A stretch of 50,922 bases of DNA, taken from the NCBI GenBank assembly GCA_020686985.1, contig JAJEPU010000024.1:1-50922 (forward strand), read 5' to 3'. This document shows positions 29,901-45,733 of this stretch, in pieces; positions within the stretch are counted from its first letter, which is position 1; every line of letters begins with the position of its first letter. Source of the stretch: Brotaphodocola catenula (GTDB lineage: Bacteria > Bacillota > Clostridia > Lachnospirales > Lachnospiraceae). The notes under the pieces are model-generated. The model ran no database searches, had not been told where the DNA came from, and was given only the letters and a program-made list of their open reading frames with translations. The position numbers and the translations under genes are program-made.

Positions 29901-29930
29901 TTGACAGTGGTGAGAAAAATATGGTAATAT
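29901..29930 (+). promoter_or_regulatory. Promoter of glpK
   Basis: TTGACA (29901-29906), 18-nt spacer, TAATAT (29925-29930). Confidence 0.75.
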
Positions 29931-29956
29931 AACAAAGTACATATTTTTATCATACT

Positions 29957-30016
29957 ACCTTAGAGAAAATGAGAGCAGGGTTGAGACCGGTGACGGTGTG
30001 ACCTTGCTCTTTCTTT
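29957..30016 (+). promoter_or_regulatory. glpK leader: candidate GlpP-controlled antiterminator/terminator
   Basis: Terminator: 29971-29981 pairs with 30001-30011 (GAGAGCAGGGT with ACCTTGCTCTT, two G-U), an inner ACCG/CGGT stem, then TTCTTT. Alternative: ACCTT (29957-29961) can pair with AGGGT (29977-29981) across a 15-nt loop AGAGAAAATGAGAGC, consuming the terminator's 5' arm. The same geometry occurs before the G3P dehydrogenase operon. GlpP control is inferred from that and from glpP at 47888. Confidence 0.65.
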
Positions 30017-30131
30017 ATGGTTTGAGAAAAAAATAACAATTAAAAACGGAATTGGCAACAAAACCAAATCGGCAACAAATCAACAGCATCATCATGAAAA
30101 TTCAATCATAACTGACAGGGGGAAGGATATT

Positions 30132-31637
30132 ATGGGGAAATATGTCATTGCACTGGATCAGGGAACAACAAGCTCTCGCTGTATTCTCTTTGACCGGGAG
30201 GGAAGCATATGCAGTGTAGCACAGAAGGAGTTTACACAGATCTTCCCACAGCCGGGCTGGGTGGAGCACAACCCGATGGAGATCTGGTCATCACAGCTTT
30301 CCGTGGCACTCGAGGCGATGGGAAAGATTGGTGCGCATTACAGTGATATTGCGGCGATCGGAATCACGAATCAGAGAGAGACGACGATCGTCTGGGATAA
30401 GGAGACCGGTGAGCCGGTTTACAATGCGATTGTCTGGCAGTGTCGCAGAACCGCAGATCGCATCGAGAAGCTCAAAGCAGACGGAATGGAGGAGAAGATC
30501 CGTGAGCGCACGGGACTGATTCCGGATGCTTATTTCTCGGGAAGTAAGATTGCATGGATTCTCGACAACGTCGAGGGCGCACGTGAGCGGGCAGAGCGGG
30601 GGGAGCTTTTGTTCGGAACGGTTGATACCTGGCTGATCTGGAATCTGACAAAGGGATGCATCCATGTGACAGATTACACAAACGCATCCCGCACAATGCT
30701 TTTCGATATTCACAAGAAATGCTGGGACGATGAGATTCTTGCATACTTTAACATTCCGAAATGCATGCTTCCGGATGTAAAACCGTCAAGCTGTGTATAC
30801 GGATATACCTCCTCGGATGTCATGGGAGGAAAGATCCCGATTGCGGGTGCAGCGGGAGATCAGCAGGCAGCGCTGTTCGGTCAGTGCTGTTTTGAGCCGG
30901 GCGAGATGAAGAATACTTACGGAACCGGATGCTTCCTTCTGATGAATACCGGAGCGAAGGCGATCAATTCCACACATGGACTTCTGACGACGATTGCGGC
31001 TTGTACCGCGGAGGAAACGCATTATGCACTTGAGGGAAGTGTATTTGTCGCAGGTGCGGCAGTGCAGTGGCTTCGTGATGAGATGCGTATGGTCAGAAGT
31101 GCTTCCCAGACCGAAGAGTATTGTACCGCAGTTGAGAATACTGGCGGAGTCTATGTTGTTCCGGCATTTGCAGGTCTTGGTGCTCCGTATTGGGAACAGT
31201 ACGCGAGAGGAACGATCGTCGGTGTGACGCGTGGAACGAGCAAGGAGCAGTTTATCCGTGCGACGGTGGAGTCGATGGCATATCAGGTTTACGATCAGAT
31301 CGAGGCGATGCAACAGGATTCCGGAATTGCACTCAAGAAGCTCAAGGTTGACGGTGGCGCGAGTGCCAATAACTTCCTGATGCAGTTCCAGTCAGATCTT
31401 CTCGGATCTGAGCTGGTTCGCCCGCAGTGTATTGAGACGACAGGACTCGGAGCAGCCTACCTTGCAGGTCTTGCGGTCGGTTACTGGAAAGACCGCGATG
31501 AGATCCGTGAAAACTGGAAGGCGGAGCGCGATTTTGCACCGGAGATGCCGGAGGAAGAGAGAAAGAAACTCATCAAGGGCTGGAAACGAGCAGTTCGCTG
31601 TGCACTTGCCTGGGCACAGGAAGATGAGGACGAATAA
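30132..31637 (+). CDS. glpK: Glycerol kinase
   Basis: Phosphorylates glycerol to G3P with ATP. The 501 residues cover both FGGY-kinase domains: [32 protein letters not shown]-equivalent [48 protein letters not shown], and [12 protein letters not shown]. In many Firmicutes a His in a 'YHFYG' stretch before PIAG is phosphorylated by the PTS; the aligned residue here is Asp229 ([14 protein letters not shown]), so that control is probably absent. No glpF is in the window. The gene stands alone behind the attenuator-like leader; no clear terminator follows. Confidence 0.96.
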
Positions 31638-31883
31638 GGATGAACAACGAGGACGAAGTCGTTAGCATTTTTGCAACGCAGGAATGAGAACGGGAATGAC
31701 AAAACTTCGGAAAAATAAGTTAAAATAAGAGACGACTAAGAGGCGTTTCGAGAAACTGAGGACACAATTGCAAATTTGGACATAAACTATGCAAAAATAA
31801 GAATACCTTTATTTTCTTAGGAGACAATTCGAAAAAATGTTAAAATTCTTCAAAGAAAAAGTGAAATATAAATAAAATTTTTA
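31638..31883 (+). other. Gap between glpK and the Opp-type operon promoter
   Basis: About 245 nt, AT-rich toward the end, without a credible gene or a clear intrinsic terminator for glpK. Read-through from glpK into the next leader is therefore possible. Confidence 0.4.
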
Positions 31884-31912
31884 TTGACATTAGGACAAAA
31901 TGACGGTATACT
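31884..31912 (+). promoter_or_regulatory. Promoter of the Opp/Dpp-type operon
   Basis: TTGACA (31884-31889), 17-nt spacer, TATACT (31907-31912). Confidence 0.8.
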
Positions 31913-31939
31913 TATTCTCAGTTGAGAAGTACTTGTACA

Positions 31940-32022
31940 CATTGCATGGAGATGAGAGAGCGCGCAGTGATGTAATTGAAAGAGCATGTTCGATTCAGTT
32001 ATATCATTGCGTGTTTTTATTT
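31940..32022 (+). promoter_or_regulatory. Leader terminator with candidate antiterminator, Opp/Dpp-type operon
   Basis: A 20-bp uninterrupted stem (31961-31980 with 31994-32013, four G-U pairs, 13-nt loop) is followed by TTTTTATTT: a strong terminator 90 nt before the first gene. CATTGC (31940-31945) can pair with GCAGTG (31964-31969) in the terminator's 5' arm, across a loop holding GGAGATGAGAGAGC. The plan resembles the glpK and G3P dehydrogenase leaders. Confidence 0.65.
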
Positions 32023-32105
32023 CACAGAAACCTTGCAGTGTGGAGGAGTATCGCAGGGAGAAGAGACTGCGACAACAGAAATTATGAAAACGGAGGAAGG
32101 GTGTT

Positions 32106-33719
32106 ATGAAAAAACGAGTAGCATTGCTTCTGGGCGCAGCGACGATGATGGCTGTAGCTCTGACTGGTTGTGGAGGCGGTAAGTCTTCCGATTCTGGTTC
32201 TGCATCAAATGGGGGAGATGCCGGAACGACGACAGCAGATGGCGGAAGCTCCGAAGCCCACAAGGACACTCTGGTGATTGGTACGGATGCAGATATCAAC
32301 AATCTGGATCTTCAGTCCCAGCAGGATCAGATCAACAACATTGTTCTGAAGAATACGCATCAGACTCTGGTATTCTTCAACAACGGTTCTCAGGGAGATG
32401 AGCGTTTTGGTCCGTGTCTGGCAACTTCGTGGGAGCAGGAAGATGATACCCACATCAAGATGAGTCTTCGTGACGATGTTCATTTCAACGATGACGACGA
32501 GACTCCGATGACCGCAGAGGATGTCAAGTTCACGCTGGATATGGCGATGGACAACATGGTAGCTTCCGTCCTCAAGGGTTATGTTGGAACAACGGTTCTC
32601 GATGATTACACGATCGAGATTGAGACTGAGAGCTACAACAACGAGTTCATTCAGTCCCTGTCTTCGGTTCCGCTGTCCATTCAGTCTAAGAAGGCATATG
32701 AGAGCGGTATGGAAGATCCGTACTACATCGGAACTGGTCCGTACAAGTTCGATGAGTGGGTAGAAGGCGAGTATTGCCGTCTGAAGAAAGTTGACGATTA
32801 CTGGGGCAACGATCTTCCGGCAGATGATAACCTGGCACCGGGTGTTGTAGATACGATCGAGTTCAAGCCGTACATCGAGGCATCTTCCCGTGTTATGGCA
32901 CTTCAGGCAGGCGAGATTGATGTCTGCGTAAACCCGCCGATCAACGAGTTACAGTATCTGGAAGATGATGACAACATCACCGTTTATGAGCAGACCGGAA
33001 CCCGTCTTTTCTACTTTGCATTCAACGTAGAGAAAGAGCCGTGGAACAACCAGAAACTGCGTCAGGCAGTTGCATGTGCGATCGATCGCAATGCAGTACT
33101 TGAGGCAGCTGTATACGGCAAGGGTACTCTTCAGAAGACGATCCTGAACCGTGGTCTGTGGGGCTTCTACGATGATATGGAAGGCTTTGATTACAACGTA
33201 GATCGTGCAAAAGAGCTGATGGCAGAGGCTGGTTATCCGGATGGTGGAATCACCACTACCCTGACTTACGCTTCCGGTACTCCGTATGAGCAGATTGCAA
33301 CCGTTATTCAGGCAAATCTGGCTGACATCGGAATCACCGTAACCCTTGAGCCGATGGAGACTGCAACCTTAAAGTCCACCTGTGTAGATGGCAAGCAGGA
33401 GCTCTTCCTGTGGAGATGGAACGAGGATTCCAAGGTTGACTTCGTATACCGTGACCTGTTCTATACCGGTTCTGGTTCTAACTATCATCACTTCTCTGAC
33501 CCGAAGGTTGATGAGCTGACCGATCTGGTAGCAACTGAGAAGGATGCTGATCAGCGTCTCGCAGATGCAAAGGAGCTTCAGGAGTACTTAGTAGATCAGT
33601 GCCCGCAGGTTCCGCTTTACATTGCAAACCTGGTAGTTGCATACAACAAGAACCTGAAAGGTACCTATTTCTACGGCGGTGGAAACCATGACTGGCGTCA
33701 TGCATATGTAGCAGAGTAA
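32106..33719 (+). CDS. Opp/Dpp-type ABC substrate-binding lipoprotein (SBP_bac_5)
   Basis: The 537-residue protein has a lipoprotein signal (AVALTGC, Cys about 22), a Gly/Ser/Thr linker, and the family 5 solute-binding fold (DTLVIGTDADINNLDLQ, YIGTGPYKFDEWVEGEY, LRQAVACAIDRNAVLEAAVYG). The family binds peptides but also nickel, sugars and opines, so the substrate cannot be read off. Location between glpK and the G3P dehydrogenase operon, behind a glp-like leader, suggests a glycerol-related or co-used nutrient. AAGGGTG lies just before ATG 32106. A terminator separates it from the permease genes. Confidence 0.88.
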   Translation: MKKRVALLLGAATMMAVALTGCGGGKSSDSGSASNGGDAGTTTADGGSSEAHKDTLVIGTDADINNLDLQSQQDQINNIVLKNTHQTLVFFNNGSQGDERFGPCLATSWEQEDDTHIKMSLRDDVHFNDDDETPMTAEDVKFTLDMAMDNMVASVLKGYVGTTVLDDYTIEIETESYNNEFIQSLSSVPLSIQSKKAYESGMEDPYYIGTGPYKFDEWVEGEYCRLKKVDDYWGNDLPADDNLAPGVVDTIEFKPYIEASSRVMALQAGEIDVCVNPPINELQYLEDDDNITVYEQTGTRLFYFAFNVEKEPWNNQKLRQAVACAIDRNAVLEAAVYGKGTLQKTILNRGLWGFYDDMEGFDYNVDRAKELMAEAGYPDGGITTTLTYASGTPYEQIATVIQANLADIGITVTLEPMETATLKSTCVDGKQELFLWRWNEDSKVDFVYRDLFYTGSGSNYHHFSDPKVDELTDLVATEKDADQRLADAKELQEYLVDQCPQVPLYIANLVVAYNKNLKGTYFYGGGNHDWRHAYVAE

Positions 33720-33802
33720 TCATTGTAGCGGACATCATGGAAGTATTTATCTTACCTATGTTCTAAGAATTTAAAAACCGTGATGGAACAGTGAGAACGA
33801 TG

Positions 33803-33846
33803 AAATCTTGCGGGCTACCGGTTTCCGGGCCCGCAAGATTTTTTTC
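33803..33846 (+). terminator. Terminator between the binding-protein and permease genes
   Basis: AAATCTTGCGGG (33803-33814) pairs perfectly with CCCGCAAGATTT (33830-33841), then T run. With no strong promoter visible before the permease gene, partial read-through would give much more binding protein than permease. Confidence 0.85.
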
Positions 33847-33956
33847 AGCAAAGATTTATCTACTTATCAATATTTATTACTTGAACAGATAAATCAAAGC
33901 AAAATAAAGTTGATGTGAATGGGTTTGATTTTAAAAGGAGAAGGAGTGAGTAGCAG

Positions 33957-34892
33957 ATGATAAAATACATAGTCAAGCGCCTCGTAATGCTGGTGCCGGT
34001 AATTCTGGTTACCTCGTTTCTGATTTTCTGGGCGATGAGCCTGACCGGCGGTGATCCGGCGCTGATGCTTGCGGGTGATAATGCACAGCCGGAGCAGGTA
34101 GAGCAGATCCGCGAAGAACTCGGTCTGAATGATCCGTTTATCGTGCGCTATGCAAACTACATGAAGGGCATGGTAACCGGAGATATGGGTAAGTCCTATG
34201 TGACAAAGCGTGATGTATTCAAGACCTTTATGGAGCGTCTTCCTAACACGTTGTTACTTGGAGGAACAGCAGTTGTGATTGCCGTTCTCGTCTCGGTTCC
34301 ACTCGGTGTCTACACCGCGATACATCAAAATACATGGAAGGATACGGCGGGCATGATATTCGCCCTATTCGGAACATCGATGCCGAACTTCTGGCTCGGA
34401 TTGATGCTCATTATCATCTTTTCCCTGAAACTCAAACTTCTGCCTACCGGAGGTAAGGGCGGAATTGACAGCCTGATCCTGCCGGCAGTAACCGTTGGTT
34501 TCGGTCTGGCAGCTCTGATCACAAGAACAACTCGTTCCTCCATGCTCGATGTGCTCCGTCAGGATTACATGACGACTGCACGTGCAAAGGGATGTTCCGA
34601 GAAGCGTGTTATCTTCACCCACGGTCTGAAGAATGCGCTGATCCCGATCATCACTGCAATCGGTCTTCAGATGTCTCTGGTTATCACCGGTTCTGTACTG
34701 GCTGAGACCGTATTCTCCTGGCCGGGAATCGGTCGTCTCGTTTACGATTCCATTTCCAAACGAGATACGCCGATGGTAACGGGATCGATCATCATGTGTT
34801 CGATTCTGATGTGTATCATCAATCTGGTGGTAGACCTGATTTACGCATTCTTTGATCCGCGTATCCGGGCACAGTACAGCAAGAAGGGGTGA
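33957..34892 (+). CDS. Opp/Dpp-type ABC permease, DppB-like
   Basis: The 311-residue protein has six transmembrane helices and the usual DppB features: start MIKYIVKRLVMLVPVI, the periplasmic LGLNDPFIVRYANYM segment, and the EAA-like cytoplasmic loop (RQDYMTTARAKGCSEKRVIF). AAAAGGAGAAGGAG precedes ATG 33957. It is followed after four nt by the second permease. Forms the membrane channel with the DppC-like partner. Confidence 0.93.
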   Translation: MIKYIVKRLVMLVPVILVTSFLIFWAMSLTGGDPALMLAGDNAQPEQVEQIREELGLNDPFIVRYANYMKGMVTGDMGKSYVTKRDVFKTFMERLPNTLLLGGTAVVIAVLVSVPLGVYTAIHQNTWKDTAGMIFALFGTSMPNFWLGLMLIIIFSLKLKLLPTGGKGGIDSLILPAVTVGFGLAALITRTTRSSMLDVLRQDYMTTARAKGCSEKRVIFTHGLKNALIPIITAIGLQMSLVITGSVLAETVFSWPGIGRLVYDSISKRDTPMVTGSIIMCSILMCIINLVVDLIYAFFDPRIRAQYSKKG

Positions 34893-34896
34893 TCGT

Positions 34897-35787
34897 ATGG
34901 CACAGACAAATTCAACCGGAAATACAAAACATGTAAAAAAGCGTACCATGCTCCAGGAAACCTGGAGACATCTGATCCGCAACCGCGGAGCCGTGCTTGG
35001 CATGCTGTTTCTTCTGTTCCTTGTTGGCGCAGCACTTTTCAGTCCATTGATTTTTGACTATGAGAAGGATGTAATCGGTCAGAACATGCAGGATCGTCTG
35101 ATGGCTCCGTGTGCAGCACACTGGTTCGGAACCGATGAGTTCGGACGTGACCTGTTTGCCCGTGTCATCTACGGTGCACGTTATTCTCTGATCATCGGTG
35201 TCGGCTCCGTGTTCCTCGGTCTGATTGTCGGAACGATTCTTGGTTCTCAGGCAGGATTCCGTGGAGGTGTTGTGGATTCCATCATCATGAGAGGAATTGA
35301 TATTTTCTATTCGATCCCGAACATCATGACCGCAGTTGTTATCGTTTCCCTGCTTGGTACAAGCACCGTAAACTTAATGATTGCACTGGCATTCTCCTGC
35401 GCGAGCAGTTTTGCCCGTATCGTGCGTGCGTCGGTTATGACGATCCGTGATCAGGAGTATGTAGAGTCTTCCTACGCAATGGGACTTCCGACCTGGAAGA
35501 TCATCGTAAAACATATCCTTCCGAACTGTCTGTCCCCGATCATCGTACAGATCACTCTGTTGATCGGAACGACGATCATTTCAGCTTCCTCCCTGAGCTT
35601 CCTTGGAATCGGTGTTCCGGCTCCGGCTCCGGAGTGGGGTGCACTTCTTTCCGCAGGACGTGGTCACATCCGTGATGCAAGCTACATGTGTATCATTCCG
35701 GGTCTTGCAATCATGATGACCGTACTGGCACTGAACCTGCTCGGTGACGGACTTCGTGATGCACTTGATCCGAAGCTGAAGAAGTAA
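34897..35787 (+). CDS. Opp/Dpp-type ABC permease, DppC-like
   Basis: ATG 34897 has AAGGGG upstream in the end of the preceding gene; a frame-open ATG at 34852 would overlap that gene by 41 nt. The 296-residue protein has a short charged N-terminus, then the OppC N-terminal helix (HLIRNRGAVLGMLFLLFLV), six membrane spans, FGTDEFGRDLFARVIYGAR typical of DppC, and the EAA-like loop (DQEYVESSYAMGLPTWKIIV). It pairs with the DppB-like permease. Confidence 0.93.
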   Translation: MAQTNSTGNTKHVKKRTMLQETWRHLIRNRGAVLGMLFLLFLVGAALFSPLIFDYEKDVIGQNMQDRLMAPCAAHWFGTDEFGRDLFARVIYGARYSLIIGVGSVFLGLIVGTILGSQAGFRGGVVDSIIMRGIDIFYSIPNIMTAVVIVSLLGTSTVNLMIALAFSCASSFARIVRASVMTIRDQEYVESSYAMGLPTWKIIVKHILPNCLSPIIVQITLLIGTTIISASSLSFLGIGVPAPAPEWGALLSAGRGHIRDASYMCIIPGLAIMMTVLALNLLGDGLRDALDPKLKK

Positions 35788-35830
35788 GTTGCGGGAGAGT
35801 GAGGAGCAACAAAAATAGGAGGAGAATGGC

Positions 35831-36841
35831 ATGGCAGAAGATTTAGTTCTTGATATTAAAGATCTGGTGGTGCACTATGAGACCGAAGACGCAGATGTGT
35901 GTGCGGTAAATGGCATTGACATTCAGATCAGCAAAAAACGTACTTTGGGACTGGTAGGTGAGACCGGCGCCGGAAAGACGACGACCGCGCTCTCAATCCT
36001 GAACCTGATCCCGAACCCGCCGGGCGTAATCAAAAACGGGTCGATTCACCTTGACGGAAAAGATATCCTGAAAATGTCTCAGGAGGATTTGCAGAAAGTC
36101 CGCGGAAATGATGTGGCAATGATCTTCCAGGACCCGATGACGGCTTTAAACCCGGTTATGACGGTTGGAGAGCAGATCGGTGAGAGTATCATGCTCCATC
36201 AGAATATTTCCAAACAGGAAGCATTTGAGAAGGCAAAAGAGATGCTTAAGATGGTAGGTATCGCAGAGTCCCGTGCCTACGATTATCCGCATCAGTTCTC
36301 CGGTGGTATGAAACAGCGAGTTGTCATCGCAATCGCACTTGCTTGTAGCCCACAGCTTCTGATCGCCGATGAGCCGACGACCGCTCTGGATGTAACGATT
36401 CAGGCACAGGTTCTTGAGCTGATGAAACAGCTGATTCAGGAGAAGGAGATGGCAATGCTTCTGATCACTCATGATCTGGGTGTTGTCGCTGAGGTCTGCG
36501 AGGATGTGGCAGTTATGTATGCCGGACGTATCGTGGAGAAGGGAACGGCAGACGATGTGTTCAACCACATGCGTCATCCGTATACCGAGGGTCTGTTTGA
36601 TTCCCTGCCGAACTTGAAGCAGAGAGGCGAACAGCTCGTTCCGATTCGCGGTCTGATGCCGGATCCGTCGGATCTTCCGCCGGGATGTTCGTTTGCTCCG
36701 CGTTGTCCGTATGCGACCGAGGCATGTACAAAGTCAATTCCTCCGTTAAAGTCTGTGGAGGGAAGCAAGACGCATTTTGTGGCATGTACCGCATATGAAA
36801 ATCCTGATTTCAGCTTGAGGAGGAACGAAAATGGCAAATAA
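35831..36841 (+). CDS. Opp/Dpp-type ABC ATPase, DppD-like
   Basis: The 336 residues include Walker [10 protein letters not shown], the Q loop [12 protein letters not shown], signature [12 protein letters not shown], Walker [13 protein letters not shown], and the C-terminal oligo_HPY domain ([15 protein letters not shown]) with its cysteine cluster. AGGAGGAG precedes ATG 35831. Its last 11 nt overlap the next ATPase gene, so the two are translationally coupled. Confidence 0.95.
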
Positions 36842-37799
36842 GACAATTCTGGAAGTCCAGAATCTCACAAAATTTTTCACAACTCCGGCAGGTCAGTTGC
36901 ACGCAGTCGACGGAGTCAGCTTTAAAATCGAAGAGGGAAAGACGCTCGGAATCGTAGGAGAGTCCGGATGCGGAAAGTCCACGACCGGAAGAACGATCCT
37001 GAAACTTCTTGAGCCGACCGGCGGAAAGATCATTTTCGACGGAAAGGACATCACCTCATACAGCAGAAAGCAGATGCGTCCTCTGCGCCAGGAGATGCAG
37101 ATGGTCTTCCAGGACCCGTTCTCCTCTCTGGACCCGCGTCAGACGGTTATGCAGTTGATCAGTGAGCCGATCATCGAGCACAAGCTGTTAAAGTCCAAGA
37201 AGGACATTGAGGATCGCACACTTGAGCTGATGGAGACCGTAGGTCTTGCAGAGCGTTACATCAACGTATACCCGCATGAGCTCGATGGTGGACGCCGTCA
37301 GCGTATCGGTATCGCGCGTGCGCTTGCCGTAAATCCGAAACTGATTGTCTGCGATGAGCCGGTATCTGCACTGGATGTGTCGATTCAGGCACAGATTCTG
37401 AACCTGTTGAAAGAGCTTCAGGAGAAAATGGGTCTGACCTACATTTTCATCACCCACGATCTGTCTGTTGTAAAATACTTCTCAGATGATATCGCAGTTA
37501 TGTATTTGGGACAGATGGTTGAGAAAGCACCGTCCGATGTCCTGTTTGCAAATCCGGTACATCCGTACACGAAGGCACTGCTGTCTGCAATCCCGCTTCC
37601 GATTGTCGGAAAAGAGAAGCCGAAGCGCCAGCTGATCAAGGGCGAGATCACCTCCCCGGTTAATCTGCCGGATGAGTGCCGTTTCATGAAGCGTTGTGAC
37701 TTTGCAGACGAGTGCTGTAAGAAGTGCAATCCGAAGCTCCATGAGATCGAGCCGGGACACTTTGTGGCATGTACGAGAGTCGCAGAGGGAACGATCTAA
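36831..37799 (+). CDS. Opp/Dpp-type ABC ATPase, DppF-like
   Basis: The 322 residues have Walker [11 protein letters not shown] loop [11 protein letters not shown], Walker [13 protein letters not shown] loop [11 protein letters not shown], and the oligo_HPY tail ([13 protein letters not shown]). The signature motif reads [12 protein letters not shown] instead of LSGGQRQR; the same substitution occurs in some clostridial relatives as I recall, so it need not be inactive. With the DppD-like subunit it makes a heterodimeric ATPase. The mgtC gene follows after 75 nt without a terminator. Confidence 0.94.
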
Positions 37800-37874
37800 G
37801 AATAAAAAAACGATTCAAAAGGGGAAACGTTACAAAAAACGCGTATTTTACTGTAAAAGGAGAATAGCAGAAAA

Positions 37875-38573
37875 ATGGAAACAGCTGTATGGGGGAGCAT
37901 GCTCGAGCAGTTTACGGCTACCGGAATAACGAATCAGATGGAATATCTGCTCAGAATTCTGATTGCGTCTTTGCTCGGTATTATGATCGGAAGTGAGCGA
38001 AAAAACAGAAACAAGTCGGCAGGAATCCGCACGCATATGATTATTGCGATGGGATCAGCGCTGATGATGGTAGTCTCTAAGTATGGATTTTATGATAATT
38101 CCAGATGGGATGCCTCCCGTGTGGCATCTCAGGTTGTCAGCGGTGTCGGCTTCCTCGGCGCTGGTGTCATCTTTGTCCGCAACAACTTGGTCAGCGGTCT
38201 GACGACCTCTGCCGGTATGTGGGCAACTGCCGGTGTCGGTCTTGCAATGGGTGCCGGAATGTATGTCGTTGGAATCTGCTCGGCAGTCATGGTTGTGGTG
38301 ATCCAGTTTATCACCCACAAGATTTCTTATTTTGCAAATGTTGCGACAAACGGTTATTTGCGAATGACGATTGACCAACAACCCGGCGCGGTCGAACGAA
38401 TGCAAAATTACCTAGAAGGGCAACGAGTCGAGATCGCCGGTGTGAAGATTAACAAGAACAAGAAGGAAGAAATCAAACTTGAGTTCGATGTGGTCTATCC
38501 GCCGGGATTTAAGAAGGGCGAGCTGATTGCAAACCTCGTGGAGATGGATCATGTGATCGCAGTCAGCGAGTAG
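37875..38573 (+). CDS. mgtC: MgtC/SapB-family membrane protein
   Basis: The 232-residue protein has four to five transmembrane helices with the family core GIMIGSERKNRNKSAGIRTHM (cited in part), GSALMMVVSKYG, SQVVSGVGFLGAGVIF and GLTTSAGMWATAGVGLAMG, then a C-terminal ACT-like soluble domain (about 150-232). MgtC proteins are tied to Mg2+ limitation and, in pathogens, to F-ATPase regulation; in commensals the role is unclear. AAAAGGAG precedes ATG 37875. It appears to be the last gene of the Opp-type operon. A weak GTTGCT...AGCAAC stem lies after it. Confidence 0.92.
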   Translation: METAVWGSMLEQFTATGITNQMEYLLRILIASLLGIMIGSERKNRNKSAGIRTHMIIAMGSALMMVVSKYGFYDNSRWDASRVASQVVSGVGFLGAGVIFVRNNLVSGLTTSAGMWATAGVGLAMGAGMYVVGICSAVMVVVIQFITHKISYFANVATNGYLRMTIDQQPGAVERMQNYLEGQRVEIAGVKINKNKKEEIKLEFDVVYPPGFKKGELIANLVEMDHVIAVSE

Positions 38574-38622
38574 GACCCGTGGATTTGTGATGTTGCTGTT
38601 TGTGCAACGCGTGAATAGCAAC

Positions 38623-38641
38623 TTTGTGAGCTTGTCACAAA
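38623..38641. promoter_or_regulatory. Perfect 7-bp dyad upstream of the G3P dehydrogenase promoter
   Basis: TTTGTGA-N5-TCACAAA, ending 35 bp before the -35 box. It resembles CRP/FNR-family sites (TGTGA-N6-TCACA), but the spacer is one base short. It is placed where an activator would bind. No regulator of that type is in the window. Confidence 0.45.
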
Positions 38642-38676
38642 AGATTGTGAAAATACAAACGATTGTCTGTAAATGA

Positions 38677-38705
38677 TTGACAAGACCCCAATGTTGTGCT
38701 AGAAT
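38677..38705 (+). promoter_or_regulatory. Promoter of the G3P dehydrogenase operon
   Basis: TTGACA (38677-38682), 17-nt spacer, TAGAAT (38700-38705). Confidence 0.8.
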
Positions 38706-38725
38706 GAAAAACAGTTAAATACGAT

Positions 38726-38799
38726 ACCTTTTGAGAGAAGAGAGTAAGGTGAAGATGAGCAGGAGATCATTCTGCTATATTCCCTTACTCTCTTTTTTT
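38726..38799 (+). promoter_or_regulatory. G3P dehydrogenase leader: candidate GlpP-controlled antiterminator/terminator
   Basis: Terminator: perfect 12-bp stem 38738-38749 with 38783-38794, inner AGCAG/CTGCT stem, then a T run. Alternative: ACCTT (38726-38730) can pair with AAGGT (38746-38750) across the 15-nt loop TTGAGAGAAGAGAGT, which removes the terminator's 5' arm. Arm sequence and loop length match the glpK leader. Confidence 0.7.
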
Positions 38800-38902
38800 G
38801 TAAAGGATCGGACTAAGCAAGTATTCAAAGAATCTCTTTTGCACTTACATTTTCGGGCGAAAAGAAATCTGAGACTACGTTAAGAACATGGAGGAGGACA
38901 TG

Positions 38903-40339
38903 ATGAAGAAGATGGATTACGATGTGGTGGTAATCGGTGGCGGTGTTGTGGGCTGTTCGATTGCCAGGGAGCTTTCCCGTTATGACCTGCATACCTGCGT
39001 GATTGAGCGGGAAGAGGATGTCTGCTCCGGTACGTCAAAAGCAAACAGTGCGATTGTACATGCCGGATTTGATGCACATCCGGGTTCCTTAAAAGCCCGT
39101 TTTAATGTTGAGGGCAACCAGATGATGGGGGATCTGGCAAAGGAACTGGATTTTGATTTCAAGCAGAATGGCTCTCTTGTGCTCTGCTTCCATGAGGAAG
39201 ATATGCCGGCACTGAAAGCTCTGTATGAGAAAGGCGTAGAGAACGGAGTAAAGGATCTCTCCATTATCAGTGGAGATGAGGTTCGCAAGATGGAGCCGAA
39301 CACGACCGACACGGTTGTAGCTGCTCTGTATGCACCGACTGGTGGCATTGTCTGCCCGTTCGGTCTGACGATCGCAATGGCTGAGAATGCCTGCGACAAC
39401 GGCGTAGAGTTCCGTTTCCTGACTGCTGTTGAGAGCGTAGAGGCAGTTGAGGGTGGTTACACCGTAAAGACTTCCAAGGGCGAGATTTCCTCTCGTTATG
39501 TGGTAAATGCTGCCGGTGTTTATGCAGACGAGATTCACAATATGGTGAGCGCAAAGAAACTGCACATCACCGCAAGAAAAGGCGATTACTGCCTGCTCGA
39601 CAAAGAGGCAGGAAGCCTGGTATCCCACACAATCTTCCAGCTTCCTGGTAAGATGGGTAAGGGCGTTTTGGTTACCCCGACTGTTCACGGAAACCTGTTG
39701 ACTGGTCCGACCGCAGTAGATGTGGAGGACAAGGAAAAGACGGCAACCTCCGCAGAGGAGCTTGCAGATCTGATGTCCAAGGCAACGATCGGTGTCAACA
39801 ACATCCCGTTCCGTCAGGTTATCACTTCCTTCGCAGGTCTTCGTGCTCACGAGGATGGCGATGACTTTGTGATCGGTGAGGTTGAGGATGCAGAGGGCTT
39901 CTTCGACGCAGCTGGCATCGAATCTCCGGGTCTTACGAGTGCTCCGGCAATCGGCGTTTACATTGCAAAGCTGGTGGCAGAAAAGGCTGAGGCAGGCGAG
40001 AAGGCAGACTGGAACGGAACTCGCAAGGGCATTGTTCGTCCGGAGCTGCTCAGCAAGGAAGAGCGCGCAGAGCTGATCAAGAAGAATCCGGCTTACGGAA
40101 CAATCATCTGCCGTTGTGAGGATGTCAGCGAGGGTGAGATTGTCGATGCAATCACTCGCACGCTGGGAGCAACTTCCCTCGATGGAATCAAGCGTCGTGT
40201 CCGTCAGGGTATGGGACGTTGTCAGGCAGGCTTCTGCACACCGAGAACGATGGAGATTCTCGCTCGTGAGAAGGGCATGAAGATGGAAGAGATCTGCAAA
40301 AATGCACCGGGTTCTGAACTGCTGACCGGGGAGCGATAA
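38903..40339 (+). CDS. FAD-dependent glycerol-3-phosphate dehydrogenase, GlpA-like, with C-terminal [2Fe-2S] domain
   Basis: GGAGGAGG at 38890-38897 selects ATG 38903 (or 38900); the ATG at 38888 overlaps that site. The 478-residue protein has the FAD-binding DYDVVVIGGGVVGCSIAREL, a DAO domain to about 370 with the HAGFDAHPGS and KARFNVEGN segments, and a BFD-like [2Fe-2S] domain at the end (IICRCEDVSEGEI ... GRCQAGFCTPR, four Cys). With the next two genes it forms the clostridial three-gene anaerobic G3P dehydrogenase, oxidising G3P to dihydroxyacetone phosphate; a 2-hydroxyglutarate-oxidase-type substrate is less likely given glpK and glpP nearby. Confidence 0.88.
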   Translation: MKKMDYDVVVIGGGVVGCSIARELSRYDLHTCVIEREEDVCSGTSKANSAIVHAGFDAHPGSLKARFNVEGNQMMGDLAKELDFDFKQNGSLVLCFHEEDMPALKALYEKGVENGVKDLSIISGDEVRKMEPNTTDTVVAALYAPTGGIVCPFGLTIAMAENACDNGVEFRFLTAVESVEAVEGGYTVKTSKGEISSRYVVNAAGVYADEIHNMVSAKKLHITARKGDYCLLDKEAGSLVSHTIFQLPGKMGKGVLVTPTVHGNLLTGPTAVDVEDKEKTATSAEELADLMSKATIGVNNIPFRQVITSFAGLRAHEDGDDFVIGEVEDAEGFFDAAGIESPGLTSAPAIGVYIAKLVAEKAEAGEKADWNGTRKGIVRPELLSKEERAELIKKNPAYGTIICRCEDVSEGEIVDAITRTLGATSLDGIKRRVRQGMGRCQAGFCTPRTMEILAREKGMKMEEICKNAPGSELLTGER

Positions 40340-40354
40340 CAGGAGGGGAAAATC

Positions 40355-41620
40355 ATGACACAGCATGACATTGTAATTATCGGCGGAGGCCCGGCAGGCC
40401 TGGCAGCAGCTGCTGCCGCAAGAAGAGCAGGTGTGGAAGATATCCTGATTCTGGAGCGTGACAGCTGTCTTGGCGGTATCTTAAACCAGTGTATCCACAA
40501 CGGATTTGGTCTTCATACATTTAAGGAAGAGCTGACGGGACCGGAGTATGCATCCCGCTACATCAAGATCGTGGAGGAGATGCAGATCCCGTACAAGCTC
40601 AACTGTATGGTAATCGATATCAACGACAAGAAGGAAGTTACCTTCATCAACAGAGAGGATGGTCTGACGACGATTCAGGCAAAGGCAATCATCCTTGCAA
40701 TGGGATGCCGTGAGCGTCCGAGAGGAGCCCTGAACATTCCGGGATATCGTCCGGCAGGTATCTACTCCGCAGGAACCGCACAGCGTCTGACGAACATCGA
40801 GGGCTATCAGGTAGGTAAGGAAGTTGTCATCCTTGGTTCCGGTGATATCGGTCTGATCATGGCAAGAAGAATGACGCTTGAGGGAGCAAAGGTAAAGGTT
40901 GTCGCAGAGCTGATGCCTTACTCCGGCGGATTAAAGAGAAACATCGTTCAGTGCTTGAACGACTACGATATTCCGCTGAAGCTCAGCCACACCGTTGTGG
41001 ACATCCAGGGCAAGGAGCGTGTAACCGGAATCACTCTTGCAGAGGTAGATGCAAACCGCAAGCCGATCCCGGGAACCGAGGAGTTTTACAGCTGTGATAC
41101 CCTGCTTCTGTCCGTAGGTCTGCTTCCGGAGAACGAGCTGACCAAGGGTGCAGGCGTTTCGATGAACCGCGTGACCTCCGGTCCGAACGTAAACGATCAG
41201 CTCGAGACGAGTGCAGAGGGAATCTTTGCATGTGGAAACGTGCTTCACGTTCATGACCTCGTAGACTATGTATCTGAGGAGGCAACCTTAGCTGGAACGA
41301 ATGCAGCTGCCTATGTACAGGCTGGCGCAGAGAAGAAAGAGGGACATGTTGTTCCGCTGTTCGGCGAGAATGGTGTTCGCTACACCGTTCCGCAGACTCT
41401 CGATACCGAGAATATGAATGACAAGATTACGGTTCGTTTCCGTGTGGCAGATGTCTACAAGGATCGCTATATCAGCGTTTACTATGATGGAAAGCGCGTT
41501 GCACACAGAAAGAAAAAAGTACTGGCTCCAGGTGAGATGGAGCAGGTTATCATCACAAAGGATAGCCTGAAAGATTGCCCGGATCTGGAAAAGATTGTGA
41601 TCTGCACGGAGGAAGAATAA
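40355..41620 (+). CDS. FAD/NAD-dependent oxidoreductase, GlpB-like subunit
   Basis: The 421-residue protein has an N-terminal FAD motif (HDIVIIGGGPAGLAAAAAAR), the redox-active-looking GGILNQCIHNG, AMGCRERPRG, a second nucleotide site (VVILGSGDIGLIMARRM), and the FAD-closing segment (EGIFACGNVLHVHDLVDYV). It most likely passes electrons from the G3P-oxidising subunit on to NAD or a quinone/ferredoxin acceptor. AGGAGGGG precedes ATG 40355, 15 nt after the previous gene, and the third subunit starts one base after its stop codon. Confidence 0.9.
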   Translation: MTQHDIVIIGGGPAGLAAAAAARRAGVEDILILERDSCLGGILNQCIHNGFGLHTFKEELTGPEYASRYIKIVEEMQIPYKLNCMVIDINDKKEVTFINREDGLTTIQAKAIILAMGCRERPRGALNIPGYRPAGIYSAGTAQRLTNIEGYQVGKEVVILGSGDIGLIMARRMTLEGAKVKVVAELMPYSGGLKRNIVQCLNDYDIPLKLSHTVVDIQGKERVTGITLAEVDANRKPIPGTEEFYSCDTLLLSVGLLPENELTKGAGVSMNRVTSGPNVNDQLETSAEGIFACGNVLHVHDLVDYVSEEATLAGTNAAAYVQAGAEKKEGHVVPLFGENGVRYTVPQTLDTENMNDKITVRFRVADVYKDRYISVYYDGKRVAHRKKKVLAPGEMEQVIITKDSLKDCPDLEKIVICTEEE

Positions 41621-41621
41621 G

Positions 41622-41984
41622 ATGGAAGTGAGAGAACTGACCTGTATCGGCTGCCCTTTGGGTTGCCCGCTGACTGTCCATATGGACGGAGATGAGATTA
41701 CCGTAACCGGAAATACCTGTAAGCGCGGTGAGGAGTACGGTAAGAAAGAAGTGACGAACCCGACCCGTATTGTGACCTCTTCTGTACGCGTGAACGACGG
41801 AACAATCGCAATGGTTTCTGTCAAGACTGCAAGCGATATTCCGAAGGGAAAGATTTTTGACTGCATGAAGGAGATCAGTGAGACGGTTGTGAATGCACCG
41901 GTTGCAATCGGTGATGTTGTGATTGCAGATTGCGCAGGAACGGGTGTTTCCATTGTTGCAACCAAGAATGTTGCCCATATCTAA
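41622..41984 (+). CDS. DUF1667 metal-cluster protein of the G3P dehydrogenase operon
   Basis: The 120-residue protein starts with a cysteine cluster (LTCIGCPLGCPLTV ... GNTCKRGEEYG; C8, C11, C15 and C33 by count) able to bind an iron-sulfur cluster or zinc, followed by KKEVTNPTRIVTSSV and KTASDIPKGKIFDCM. DUF1667 proteins nearly always follow these two oxidoreductases in Clostridia and probably serve as electron-transfer subunit in place of GlpC. It is the last gene of the operon. Confidence 0.9.
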   Translation: MEVRELTCIGCPLGCPLTVHMDGDEITVTGNTCKRGEEYGKKEVTNPTRIVTSSVRVNDGTIAMVSVKTASDIPKGKIFDCMKEISETVVNAPVAIGDVVIADCAGTGVSIVATKNVAHI

Positions 41985-42105
41985 TCCATAGAGAATTTGT
42001 ATCATTATACCATAAGAGAATTTATTAAAGGAATTCAATAAGAAATTCATGGGTGATTGATTTGGAAGATCATTTATAAAATAAGAGGATAGATCAAGAC
42101 CAGTC

Positions 42106-42146
42106 AGGGTGTTCGGAGATGGCTACAAAACCGTTTTGAACACCCT
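42106..42146 (+). terminator. Hairpin ending the G3P dehydrogenase operon
   Basis: AGGGTGTTC (42106-42114) pairs perfectly with GAACACCCT (42138-42146), followed by CTCTGTTACTT, a poor T run. The rest of the 41985-42305 gap has no gene and no clear promoter for the next frame. Confidence 0.6.
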
Positions 42147-42305
42147 CTCTGTTACTTATAGGTTCCGATTTTTATGATTGATTTTTTGTGATTTGCATTG
42201 AGAAGATAGCAATCAGTGGCAGAATGTGATAAAATAGATCGATAAGGAACGAGAAAGAAAGATAAAAAAGATCGAAAAGAAGCCAGGAGAAGGAGAGGGT
42301 AAGGT

Positions 42306-42932
42306 ATGAATTTCAACATCAATGGGATCTTCAATCCGGAGAACCGTTTTTGGAGCTTTATTGATAAGATTGTGAATCTCTGTCTGCTTGGAATCTTGTG
42401 GGCATTGTTTTCTCTGCCGGTTGTGACGGCTGGAGCATCGACGACGGCGCTGTTTGGATATACGCTTCCGCTGACGGAGGATGAGGAGGGGTATGTGTGG
42501 CAGACCTTTATCCGGACATTCCGGAAATACTTTGTGAAGAGCACGGTTTTCTGGATCGGAATCCTCGCAGGTGAGGGATTTCTCGTCTATGATCTCTACT
42601 GTTGCCTCCACTTAAATGTGCCGGGAGCACTCCGAATTGTGGCATTTGCTGTGCTGGCTTGTCTGATAATTGTTTTTTCTTTAACAGCAGTATGGCTCTT
42701 TCCGCTGACGGTGTATGAGGACGGAACGATTCGCCAGACGCTCTCTCGGACAGTTGTCCTTGCGGTAGGCAATCCTGGTATGACCGTGGCGATTGTATCG
42801 CTGTACGCACTCTTTGGAATTGCAGTGTACTATATTCCCGTCCTGTTTATGGTCTGGTTTGCCTTTTTTTCTTATCTGACTTCGTATTTTTATCGTGCGA
42901 CTTTCCGCAAATATCTCCAGAAAGAAGATTGA
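42306..42932 (+). CDS. YesL-family (DUF624) membrane protein
   Basis: The 208-residue protein has about five transmembrane helices and matches DUF624: FRPENR-like NPENRFWSFIDKIVNLCLLG, LWALFSLPVVTAGASTTAL, and FRKYFVKSTVFW. GGAGAAGGAGAGG precedes ATG 42306. YesL proteins sit next to carbohydrate ABC importers in Firmicutes and may assist their assembly or sensing; mechanism unknown. Here it precedes the Ugp-like importer, in keeping with that association, but it has its own transcript unit. Confidence 0.87.
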   Translation: MNFNINGIFNPENRFWSFIDKIVNLCLLGILWALFSLPVVTAGASTTALFGYTLPLTEDEEGYVWQTFIRTFRKYFVKSTVFWIGILAGEGFLVYDLYCCLHLNVPGALRIVAFAVLACLIIVFSLTAVWLFPLTVYEDGTIRQTLSRTVVLAVGNPGMTVAIVSLYALFGIAVYYIPVLFMVWFAFFSYLTSYFYRATFRKYLQKED

Positions 42933-42944
42933 CGAGGAGAAAAG

Positions 42945-42974
42945 TTATGGGGCTTATATGAAAATGCCCCATAA
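42945..42974. other. Hairpin after the yesL-like gene
   Basis: TTATGGGGC (42945-42953) pairs perfectly with GCCCCATAA (42966-42974). On the plus strand it is followed by A rather than T, so it may end transcription inefficiently or act as an mRNA 3' end. Confidence 0.55.
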
Positions 42975-43064
42975 AAAATCGTCAAAATTGTTAAAAAATA
43001 ATCAATAAATTGTGAAAAATAAAACGAATAATGAAAAATTATATAAAAAATTTTCAAAAAAGAG

Positions 43065-43093
43065 TTGCATTTTATACAAAACAATGGTAGAAT
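43065..43093 (+). promoter_or_regulatory. Promoter of the Ugp-like ABC operon
   Basis: TTGCAT (43065-43070), 17-nt spacer, TAGAAT (43088-43093). Confidence 0.65.
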
Positions 43094-43099
43094 CAATGT

Positions 43100-43205
43100 C
43101 ATAAGAAATGAATACGCCGAGGAAGAGATGATGAGATTATGGCAAAAAGAGATGCGCACCGCTGTGCGGGGGGAGGATGCATCAGTTTTGTGTAATCTCT
43201 TTTTT
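43100..43205 (+). promoter_or_regulatory. Leader terminator of the Ugp-like ABC operon
   Basis: AAAAAGAGAT (43144-43153) pairs with ATCTCTTTTT (43195-43204), enclosing CGCAC/GTGCG (about 43155-43168): a terminator with T run 45 nt before the first gene. GAGATTA (43133-43139) is an alternative 5' arm for TAATCTC (43193-43199). Upstream, CATAA (43100-43104) can pair with TTATG (43137-43141) around a purine-rich loop with AGAGATGATGAG. The match to the glp leaders is weaker here. Confidence 0.5.
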
Positions 43206-43249
43206 GCGCTCATTTTCCGAAAACGGCGCTCTAGGAAGGGAGAAGGAAT

Positions 43250-44617
43250 ATGAGAAAAAAGATCGCGTTGGTTATGGCAGCAGTGACAGCGGCAACCACA
43301 CTGGCAGGATGTAGTGGTGGTGGTTCTACCGGAAAAGCAGGTGGACAGAGCACGACGGCAGAGACAAGCGCAGAGGCAGGAGAGACCACCGGAGAGGTGG
43401 ATGCCTCCAAGTATGAGGTCACAGAGCCGATCACGATCAAATGGTGGCACGCACTTGAGGATCAGTATTCAGATACCGTGCAGAAGGTTGTTGATGATTT
43501 CAACAATTCTCAGGATCTGATCACCGTAGAGGCAGAGTACATCGGAAGTTACAGCAAGGTAAATGAGGCTCTGGTTGCCGCACACGCAGCAGGAACGGAT
43601 CTTCCGGCAATCACCGTTGCAAATACCTCCTACATCGCAGAGTACGGAGCAGGCGGACTGACCGAGGATCTGACCCCATACATTCAGGCGAGCGATTATG
43701 ATGTTACAGACTTTGGTGATGGTATGATCAAGGCATGTCAGTATAACGACAAGGTTGTTTCCCTTCCATTCTTGATCTCCACTCAGATCATGTTCTACAA
43801 CAAGGATATGGCAGATGAGATGGGAATCACGATTCCGGAGAAGTGGAGCGATATGGATGCATTCCTTGACAAGGCAACCCAGAAGAACGCAGACGGTTCC
43901 ACCGCTGTATACGGTACCATCATTCCTGGTTGGGATCAGTGGTATTTTGAGACCTTTTACCAGAACAACGGTGTGAAGATCATCAACGACGATCAGGTAA
44001 CCACCGATCTGGCTGATGAGAAGGCAGTTGCAGTAGCACAGAAGATCAAAGACTGGTGCGACAAGGGTTACACCTACTGGACCGGTACCGGTGATGATGC
44101 TTCCTCCAACATGAGACAGAACTTCATCGATGGAAAGGCATTCTCCGTTGTACATACGACTTCTCTTTACAACACCTATGTAGATCAGTGTGACTTTGAG
44201 GTTGGCATGTCCTGGCTTCCGGGTGGCGACACCAAGGATCAGGAGATCGGCGGATGTGCACTTCTGATTCCGGCAAAGAACGATCAGGCAACCAAGAATG
44301 CCGCTTGGCAGTTCATGCAGTACCTGTGCAGTAAGGATGTCAACATGACCTGGGCAGAGGGTACCGGTTACATGCCGACAAGAAAATCTGTTCTTGATAC
44401 TGATGAGGGTAAGGCATTCCTTGAGAAGAAGCCGGCATTCCAGGCAATTCTGGACAACCTTGACGAGATCAACCCGAGAATCCAGCACAAGGCTTGGGGT
44501 CAGCTTGCTACGATCTGGAAGAACTCCATGGCAGAGGTTATGATGGAAGGCGGAGATGTTCCGTCCGCAATGGAGCAGATGGCAGACGAGATCAACGATG
44601 TACTTGGTGATTCATAA
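43250..44617 (+). CDS. Ugp-like ABC substrate-binding lipoprotein (family 1 extracellular)
   Basis: The 455-residue protein has a lipoprotein signal (TTLAGC, Cys about 22), a Gly/Thr/Glu linker, and an SBP_bac_1 fold (ITIKWWHALEDQYSDTVQK, SLPFLISTQIMFYNKDM, GCALLIPAKNDQATKNAAW, EGTGYMPTRKSV). UgpB of E. coli, which binds G3P and glycerophosphocholine, belongs here, as do many sugar-binding proteins. Adjacent glpQ and glpP favour a glycerophosphodiester or G3P substrate, by context only. AGGGAGAAGG precedes ATG 43250. Confidence 0.85.
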   Translation: MRKKIALVMAAVTAATTLAGCSGGGSTGKAGGQSTTAETSAEAGETTGEVDASKYEVTEPITIKWWHALEDQYSDTVQKVVDDFNNSQDLITVEAEYIGSYSKVNEALVAAHAAGTDLPAITVANTSYIAEYGAGGLTEDLTPYIQASDYDVTDFGDGMIKACQYNDKVVSLPFLISTQIMFYNKDMADEMGITIPEKWSDMDAFLDKATQKNADGSTAVYGTIIPGWDQWYFETFYQNNGVKIINDDQVTTDLADEKAVAVAQKIKDWCDKGYTYWTGTGDDASSNMRQNFIDGKAFSVVHTTSLYNTYVDQCDFEVGMSWLPGGDTKDQEIGGCALLIPAKNDQATKNAAWQFMQYLCSKDVNMTWAEGTGYMPTRKSVLDTDEGKAFLEKKPAFQAILDNLDEINPRIQHKAWGQLATIWKNSMAEVMMEGGDVPSAMEQMADEINDVLGDS

Positions 44618-44690
44618 TAAGAATAAGAGTTAAGTTGAGATAAGTTGAGAAATGTGTAACTGCGGGGGATAGAGTAGTTACAAAAGAGGG

Positions 44691-44777
44691 AGCGTTACTG
44701 TTTGCACCTGTTTGTACAACCGGTCAACCGATAGGTGGACCGTGAGTGAGGCAGATAGGGATGCAGGCAGTAACGCT
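44691..44777 (+). other. Structured intergenic RNA element between binding protein and permease genes
   Basis: An outer 10-bp stem AGCGTTACTG / CAGTAACGCT (44691-44700 with 44768-44777) encloses 67 nt. Inside, CACCT (44705-44709) pairs with AGGTG (44733-44737), and CGGTC (44721-44725) with GACCG (44738-44742). Their order (1-2-1'-2') is that of an H-type pseudoknot. No T run, so not an ordinary terminator. Confidence 0.55.
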
Positions 44778-44814
44778 GCAAGGTTACGATAAACACAAGC
44801 GGGGGTGTAGCAAC

Positions 44815-45720: not shown

Positions 45721-45733
45721 GAGGAGAACAATC

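Follow-up and report, generated by a model that had tools for sequence, protein, structure and literature searches.

A purine-loop hairpin overlapping the terminators of four glycerol-region leaders in Brotaphodocola catenula, a probable target of the antiterminator GlpP

The glycerol gene region and its leaders

The subject of this study is a short hairpin with a purine-rich loop which recurs in the leaders of four operons on a stretch of 50,922 nucleotides (nt) from Brotaphodocola catenula (Lachnospiraceae; contig JAJEPU010000024.1, genome 3.3 Mb), hereafter called the window. The glycerol gene region occupies 18.6 kb (29.9–48.5 kb) of this 50.9-kb contig (G000:C29), and its gene order is glpK, an Opp-type importer, a MgtC-like gene, a glycerol 3-phosphate (G3P) dehydrogenase operon, a DUF624 gene, a Ugp-like importer, a gene for glycerophosphodiester phosphodiesterase (GDPD) and glpP. 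All features given with coordinates in this section are on the forward (+) strand. The glycerol kinase gene glpK (30132–31637) was assigned by its FGGY_N and FGGY_C domains and by orthologs. The Opp-type ATP-binding cassette (ABC) importer (32106–37799) consists of an SBP_bac_5 protein, two permeases and two ATPases; the binding protein, one permease and one ATPase were assigned by family searches and the remaining genes by reading. According to its domain families the dehydrogenase operon (38888–41984) is of the anaerobic type and encodes a DAO+BFD protein, a Pyr_redox_2 protein and a DUF1667 protein. For the binding protein and the two permeases of the Ugp-like ABC importer (43250–46615) the UgpB/A/E models are the best or near best, with scores that are all below the models' cut-offs. 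A GDPD gene (glpQ-like, by domain family) follows at 46886–47623. The gene of the G3P-responsive antiterminator, glpP (47888–48487; PF04309, 221.5 bits), is the sole copy found in the genome, and the four leaders thus share a genome with one glpP. A sequence-only reading of this DNA had placed glpP in the same region as the leaders; the gene lies beyond position 43205, where the part it described ends, yet within the same 18.6 kb.

The four leaders have a common layout: promoter-like boxes of sigma-70 type spaced by 17–18 nt, the purine-loop hairpin and an overlapping terminator. The boxes were found by reading the sequence, the hairpins by reading and with a script, and the terminators by folding. 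In the glpK leader the promoter-like sequence TTGACA-N18-TAATAT (29901–29930) is followed by an antiterminator-type hairpin (29957–29981), in which ACCTT (29957–29961) and AGGGT (29977–29981) enclose the 15-nt purine loop AGAGAAAATGAGAGC. The intrinsic terminator (29971–30016) overlaps this hairpin, and the fold of 29969–30016 has −25.6 kcal/mol. The leader of the dehydrogenase operon (the glpA-type leader) has TTGACA-N17-TAGAAT (38677–38705), a hairpin (38726–38750) of ACCTT (38726–38730), the 15-nt purine loop TTGAGAGAAGAGAGT and AAGGT (38746–38750), and an overlapping intrinsic terminator at 38737–38799 (fold of 38737–38800, −31.2 kcal/mol). In the Opp leader TTGACA-N17-TATACT (31884–31912) precedes an antiterminator-type hairpin (31940–31969) with CATTGC (31940–31945), an 18-nt loop and GCAGTG (31964–31969), and the intrinsic terminator is long (31956–32018; fold of 31952–32020, −33.8 kcal/mol). 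Finally, the Ugp-like leader carries TTGCAT-N17-TAGAAT (43065–43093), a weak hairpin (43116–43143) in which GCC (43116–43118) and GGC (43141–43143) close a 22-nt purine-rich loop, and an intrinsic terminator at 43133–43205 (fold of 43125–43206, −23.8 kcal/mol). The letters and spacings that the sequence-only reading had given for the glpK and glpA hairpins are exact, and the Opp pairing before a terminator as well as the weaker version in the Ugp-like leader are found where it had seen them.

In each of the four leaders an intrinsic terminator lies between promoter and gene. None of 200 shuffled sequences folds as well as the glpK, glpA and Opp terminators; for the Ugp terminator, the least clear-cut one, 4 of 200 do. 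In three of the leaders (glpK, glpA and Opp) the terminator's 5′ arm takes in the last part of the loop and the hairpin's 3′ arm, an overlap that had been proposed for the glpK and glpA leaders and extends to the Opp leader. When the full-length leaders of these three are folded, the terminator wins. The bare glpK hairpin has −1.6 kcal/mol compared to −25.6 kcal/mol for its terminator, and a hairpin so much weaker than its competitor needs a partner. A strict detector, which demands the loop pattern, a stem, a terminator and a T-run, accepts the Opp and glpA leaders and fails with the glpK and Ugp leaders. The shared leader motif of the four glycerol-region operons is confirmed as real.

Conserved loop and covarying stem

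The conserved part of the element is the purine loop GAGA-N2..4-GAG. The loop mostly measures 13–18 nt and the stem is mostly 4–6 bp of free sequence. Among the glpP-bearing genomes of the family we find the stems ACCTT/AAGGT, TTACC/GGTAA, TTGC/GCAA, TGCC/GGCA, GATAC/GTATC, GATTGT/ACAATC, TCTAGCA/TGCTAGG and others, and 21 elements hold 13 different 4-bp stems. The idea that ACCTT itself is the signal was rejected since the stem sequence is free. Thus, the suggestion of the sequence-only reading that the purine loop is the recognized part holds in so far as the loop is conserved, while GAGA-N2..4-GAG with a free stem is a better consensus than ACCTT-N15.

For the analysis of covariation, elements were picked by three features, a position upstream of a glp gene, the GAGA..GAG pattern and a T-run; no stem criterion was used in order to avoid selecting for stems. 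The two arms score 10.17 within elements and 8.62 between elements, and none of 20,000 permutations reaches this value (42 representatives of 54 elements). An enlarged set of 69 consists of these 42 and 27 new leaders from Bacilli, Opp and Ugp operons; G060, G172, G047, G053 and the second G069 copy (family Opp or Ugp leaders without an element) as well as L250 were left out of it. Here the scores are 10.04 within and 8.65 between elements, again with 0 of 20,000 permutations (57 representatives of 69). The permutation tests included spurious-looking candidates, such as the one 356 nt before oppA of the window and those of L105 and of L117 glpP. In the enlarged set a score of 11 is reached in 20 of 57 elements, against 16.3% of the between-element pairings, and many elements therefore have short stems only. 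Conservation of the pairing in relatives was one of the points on which the sequence-only reading had offered to be refuted; the pairing is kept through sequence change. Across relatives the loop is preserved, and the stem varies without losing its pairing.

An alignment of the diverse elements with MAFFT aligns the GAG and shears the stems, and the permutation tests were used without building a third model in addition to the following two. Model R1 is a sequence model of the leaders of 11 relatives, with the window sequence excluded. Among its 24 listed hits in the window, the glpA leader (38730–38754) ranks first with E 1.5e-4, the glpK leader (29952–29981) second with E 1.6e-3 and the Opp loop fourth with E 0.25, by itself not significant; the Ugp leader is not among the 24. 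As a search tool over 200 family genomes R1 was rejected because it lacks power outside the nearest relatives: at E ≤ 0.5 it hits 139 of the 200, and these matches are taken to be mostly chance. Its hits in the glpP-lacking genomes G074 and G039 (22.1 and 21.3 bits) have no element by the strict detector. Model R2, a structural model from the sequences of six relatives, has its best hit in the B. catenula genome at the glpA leader of the window (E 0.0015). It was rejected as a general model for being too narrow, with seven hits at E ≤ 0.01 over 59 loci: three of its own training sequences, the glpA leader of the window and, in G069, the glpA and glpK leaders together with a third one upstream of an antiporter gene.

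Close relatives show the element by plain motif as well. CCT[AT]AGAGA occurs in the glpK leader of the window and in 10 of 20 leaders of congener glpK orthologs (L003–L012 of L003–L022, 64–86% identity), and ACCTTTGAGA in 7 of the 17 glpA places outside the window with 64% identity or more (L033–L049; weaker hits of about 40% or less were left out of this comparison). In the congeners L013, L016, L018 and L019 the end of glpP seems, by eye, to lie directly before glpK, so that a leader would have to precede glpP.

Conservation in Bacilli

A search with two GlpP sequences from Bacilli yielded 16 named loci, four of them from Listeria. In the 12 others, 16 of the 22 intergenic regions behind glpP or glpK contain GAGA..GAG and a T-run: all 10 labelled glpD leaders, an Anoxybacillus leader, 3 of 9 glpF leaders and two regions in Aquibacillus. 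The gene behind the Anoxybacillus leader reads as a G3P dehydrogenase, which makes 11 of 11 glpD leaders in total, and 10 of these 11 pass the strict detector too. The identity of glpD comes from family models for L166, L168, L175 and L177, with scores below the cut-offs, and from position and size for the others. Over all 16 loci (325 kb) the strict detector finds 16 elements, 13 of them at the leaders just named, compared to 4 in one shuffled set. In 10 of 16 whole Bacilli genomes the loop and terminator pattern matches exactly once per genome, always at the coordinates of the glpD leader, and the reversed control gives 0 matches. In the four Listeria loci (L162–L165) no glp operon leader was recognized; the single strict-detector hit there (L162:7741) is away from any recognized glp gene. 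Judged by these matches, the element is conserved from the family of the window into the Bacilli.

One of the two Aquibacillus elements (L171:10658, + strand), which lies behind glpP, precedes a gene for a TRAP-type DctP binding protein. This suggests that a TRAP importer may be under GlpP control in Aquibacillus.

Link of the element to glpP

We searched 200 genomes of the family for glpP. A PF04309 match is present in 66 of them and above the cut-off in 52; the partial match of G201 (26.6 bits) was counted as glpP-lacking, which leaves 51 glpP-bearing genomes. Orthologs of the glpA-type gene (E ≤ 1e-120) occur at 75 places in 72 of the 200 genomes. We examined 600 nt upstream of 72 places, omitting G029 (contig end) and the partial genes of G024:C146 and G137. 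In glpP-bearing genomes the element is found upstream of glpA at 21 of 46 places, the window's included, and always within about 200 nt. In glpP-lacking genomes it is found within 300 nt at none of 26 places (Fisher p 9.7e-6) and within 600 nt at two (G147 and G201), both 495–557 nt away; counting these distant ones p is 0.0012. The opposite strand gives 0 of 72, and shuffled sequences give 2 of 138 and 0 of 78. These counts show that the element accompanies glpP.

Against this background it is improbable that the leaders are ordinary constitutive attenuators, in which the shared purine run merely reflects the pairing of the terminator 5′ arm with CUC and the U-run. A part of the loop conservation is indeed explained in this way, since the CUC that precedes the U-run is paired with the second GAG and, in the full-length glpA, glpK and Ugp folds, the U-run takes up purines of the first GAGA as well. 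However, the 5′ arm of the stem lies outside the terminator, and yet it pairs far better with the 3′ arm of its own element than with those of other elements. Moreover, shuffled sequences and opposite strands almost never hold the element, and relatives which have the same gene and lack glpP have none within 300 nt.

Slightly less probable still is that another RNA-binding regulator, such as CsrA, a protein of the BglG/SacY type or an ANTAR protein, acts on the hairpin and that glpP is a mere neighbor. GGA is the core of CsrA sites, and BglG-type targets typically have a hairpin that overlaps a terminator. Many loops of the Bacilli contain two GGA motifs and the Opp loop of the window has GGA; its glpK and glpA loops, however, are devoid of GGA and are no CsrA sites by this measure. 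Rfam contains no family of this kind. At the gathering threshold it has no match in the window (RAT, ANTAR and riboswitch families among others), the only match close to glpK being BTnc231 far below threshold (20.4 vs 80.4 bits), and a 3-kb Halobacillus locus gives no Rfam match up to E 1. The presence of the element follows glpP, and the B. subtilis glp leaders are reported as GlpP targets (PMC9604022). That the RNA itself senses the metabolite, as a small G3P or glycerol riboswitch, would fit the terminator/antiterminator layout but is very improbable: the element measures just 25–30 nt, its loop consists of purines and its stem is free in sequence, it is weak alone and it tracks a protein gene. 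Protein-held antitermination by GlpP would be the simplest reading.

Several further proteins of the GlpP family were encountered. The second places in G024 encode GlpP-family proteins with matches of 124–131 bits, and L104, L105, L106 and L111 encode divergent ones (24–30% identity to GlpP of the window) in varied neighborhoods. The same hairpin type is present near GlpP-like genes of 45–46% identity at L093:3164 (− strand) and L096:7505 (+ strand). These two hairpins precede an operon for a KduD-like dehydrogenase, an FGGY (xylulokinase-like) kinase and a SurE-like nucleotidase, with families searched in L093 only. The GlpP-like protein at these loci is perhaps a GlpP paralogue with another ligand.

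The importers

Six other genomes of the 24 in the genus have an oppA ortholog. Five of these Opp leaders (L246–L250) have ACACATTGCATAGAGA..GAG..GC..GATGT-like hairpins as in the window, and the sixth (L251) is a variant with a 3-bp stem. The predicted membership of the Opp importer in the GlpP regulon is well supported across the congeners having it.

For ugpB we compared 11 places in congeners and five in the family. By eye the element is present at 5 of the 11 congener places (L252–L255 and L257; stems of 4–5 bp) and at one of the five family places (G069). The five congener stems are TGCT/(A or G)GCA or TGCTG/CAGCA and the G069 stem is TTGCTT/GAGCAA. Each of the six precedes a terminator whose 3′ end reads T-rich after ATCT-type letters. 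Less surely, therefore, the Ugp importer would also belong to the regulon in a subset of congeners; its inclusion is weaker because the stems are short and present only in some congeners. The G3P regulon with two ABC importers, as proposed in the sequence-only reading, is accordingly better supported for Opp than for Ugp, and with this shading its interpretation is supported by the comparison of relatives.

The DUF624 gene of the window (42306–42932) lies upstream of the Ugp-like operon, and DUF624-like genes adjoin ugp genes in L120 and L131 too. At L120:4136 (− strand) in G069, an element with a CCTT/AAGG stem is located before a gene for a CPA2-like cation:proton antiporter adjoining the glp/ugp cluster. 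Elsewhere in the B. catenula genome (L153:1508; C35, about position 69661) TCCCT-GAGATGAGAGAGAAA-AGGGA with a terminator is found about 280 nt upstream of the second of two genes, which we take to be a corrinoid/homocysteine methyltransferase-like gene before and a comEA-like gene after the hairpin. It may be a plain gene-end terminator.

Discussion

We suggest that each of the four leaders is a GlpP-responsive attenuator, in which GlpP together with G3P holds the weak hairpin and prevents termination, and that the regulon includes the Opp-type and, less surely, the Ugp-type importer. We give this a probability of roughly 85%. It is based on the element itself, its place, the overlap with the terminator, the covariation of the stem, the conservation in Bacilli and the link to glpP; GlpP as the binder, G3P as the signal and the direction of control are what we infer from these.

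Regulation could proceed in the following steps. RNA polymerase would start at the promoter, which lies some tens of nucleotides upstream, and the small hairpin, a short free-sequence stem closing the purine loop GAGA-N2..4-GAG, would be transcribed first. Without GlpP the weak hairpin would lose to the terminator, which draws the second GAG and the hairpin's 3′ arm into its own 5′ arm, and transcription would stop. With G3P present GlpP would bind the purine loop and hold the hairpin, so that the terminator could not form. Read-through would then allow transcription of glpK, the G3P dehydrogenase operon and the Opp-type and Ugp-like importers, and the GDPD gene behind the latter is perhaps co-transcribed.

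We note, however, a number of observations that weigh against this proposal. The bare glpK hairpin is no better than shuffled sequences (150 of 200 are as good), the bare glpA hairpin sequence favors another fold, and the bare Opp hairpin is equalled by 28 of 200 shuffles. The Ugp hairpin of the window has only 3 bp, and the strict detector fails there. It also fails in five of the six Opp congeners, passing L249 only, and at all 11 Ugp congener places; none of the ugpB places compared passes. At the family level the one Opp ortholog (G060, 67% identity, glpP-bearing) is without an element, and so, by eye, are the other ten of the 16 ugpB places, including four of the five in the family. The Ugp stem scores in relatives (8.0–10) barely exceed the between-element mean of 8.65, so that the evidence for Ugp is conservation of loop and place and not covariation. 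In Bacilli glpF leaders seldom carry the element (the 3 of 9 given above). The likeness of hairpin type to the B. subtilis GlpP system is presumed from the glpD leaders of related Bacilli, which were the ones compared. Finally, only 26 of the 51 glpP-bearing genomes have an element close to a glp gene according to the strict detector, at least two of these being doubtful (G053 and G168), in a count which covers a part of the glp genes of these genomes. The detector misses known cases, namely glpK of the window, G069 (loop shape) and G127 (about 640 nt away). It thus undercounts, yet some glpP-bearing genomes may have no element.

If the proposal is correct, a consensus with a covarying stem would make the regulon predictable from sequence and defines exact loop and stem mutants. 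It predicts a response to G3P for both the Opp-type and the Ugp-type importer of these bacteria. The consensus would also help to locate the RNA-binding face of GlpP, for whose family two solved chains were found by sequence (3kts and 1vkf). A wider generalization has, in our estimate, about an even chance: the hairpin with the GAGA-N2..4-GAG loop could be the element that the GlpP family as a whole recognizes, from the Bacilli to the family of the window, and could have been recruited to Opp-, Ugp- and TRAP-type importers and, with GlpP paralogues, to unrelated operons. GlpP-like proteins would then be a modular class of loop binders gated by metabolites.

In several aspects the leaders resemble known systems. 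B. subtilis GlpP is reported to act via terminators in the glpD, glpFK and glpT leaders, where a GlpP binding site in the 5′ untranslated region is mentioned (PMC9604022), and G3P-bound GlpP is described to bind the antiterminator (PMC7430163). Glycerol genes whose 5′ untranslated region combines a promoter, a GlpP site (here a putative one) and a terminator are common to both. The statement in the sequence-only reading that no RNA element had been defined therefore stands for the consensus and falls for the existence of the site, which was already in print (PMC9604022). In the open-licence PMC literature, as far as titles and the starts of abstracts go, we found no GlpP RNA consensus and no GlpP regulon with ugp; a definition elsewhere is possible. 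The present proposal would generalize a known mechanism; the two importers are not known as GlpP targets. Different from B. subtilis are the consensus with a covarying stem across the Bacilli and the family of the window, and the predicted targets, among them here a G3P dehydrogenase of the anaerobic type and two ABC importers.

With the LicT/SacY/GlcT antiterminators the leaders share a small hairpin which overlaps a terminator and is, here presumably, held by a protein. The protein family differs, and whereas those proteins contact two bulges and the intervening stem (PMC7430163), here it is the apical purine loop that is conserved. HutP of B. subtilis is similar in that a metabolite-activated protein prevents a terminator by binding purine-containing repeats (PMC7430163). 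The NAG repeats read by HutP, however, form two clusters separated by 20 nt, whereas in the element described here GAGA and GAG are both presented in one hairpin loop.

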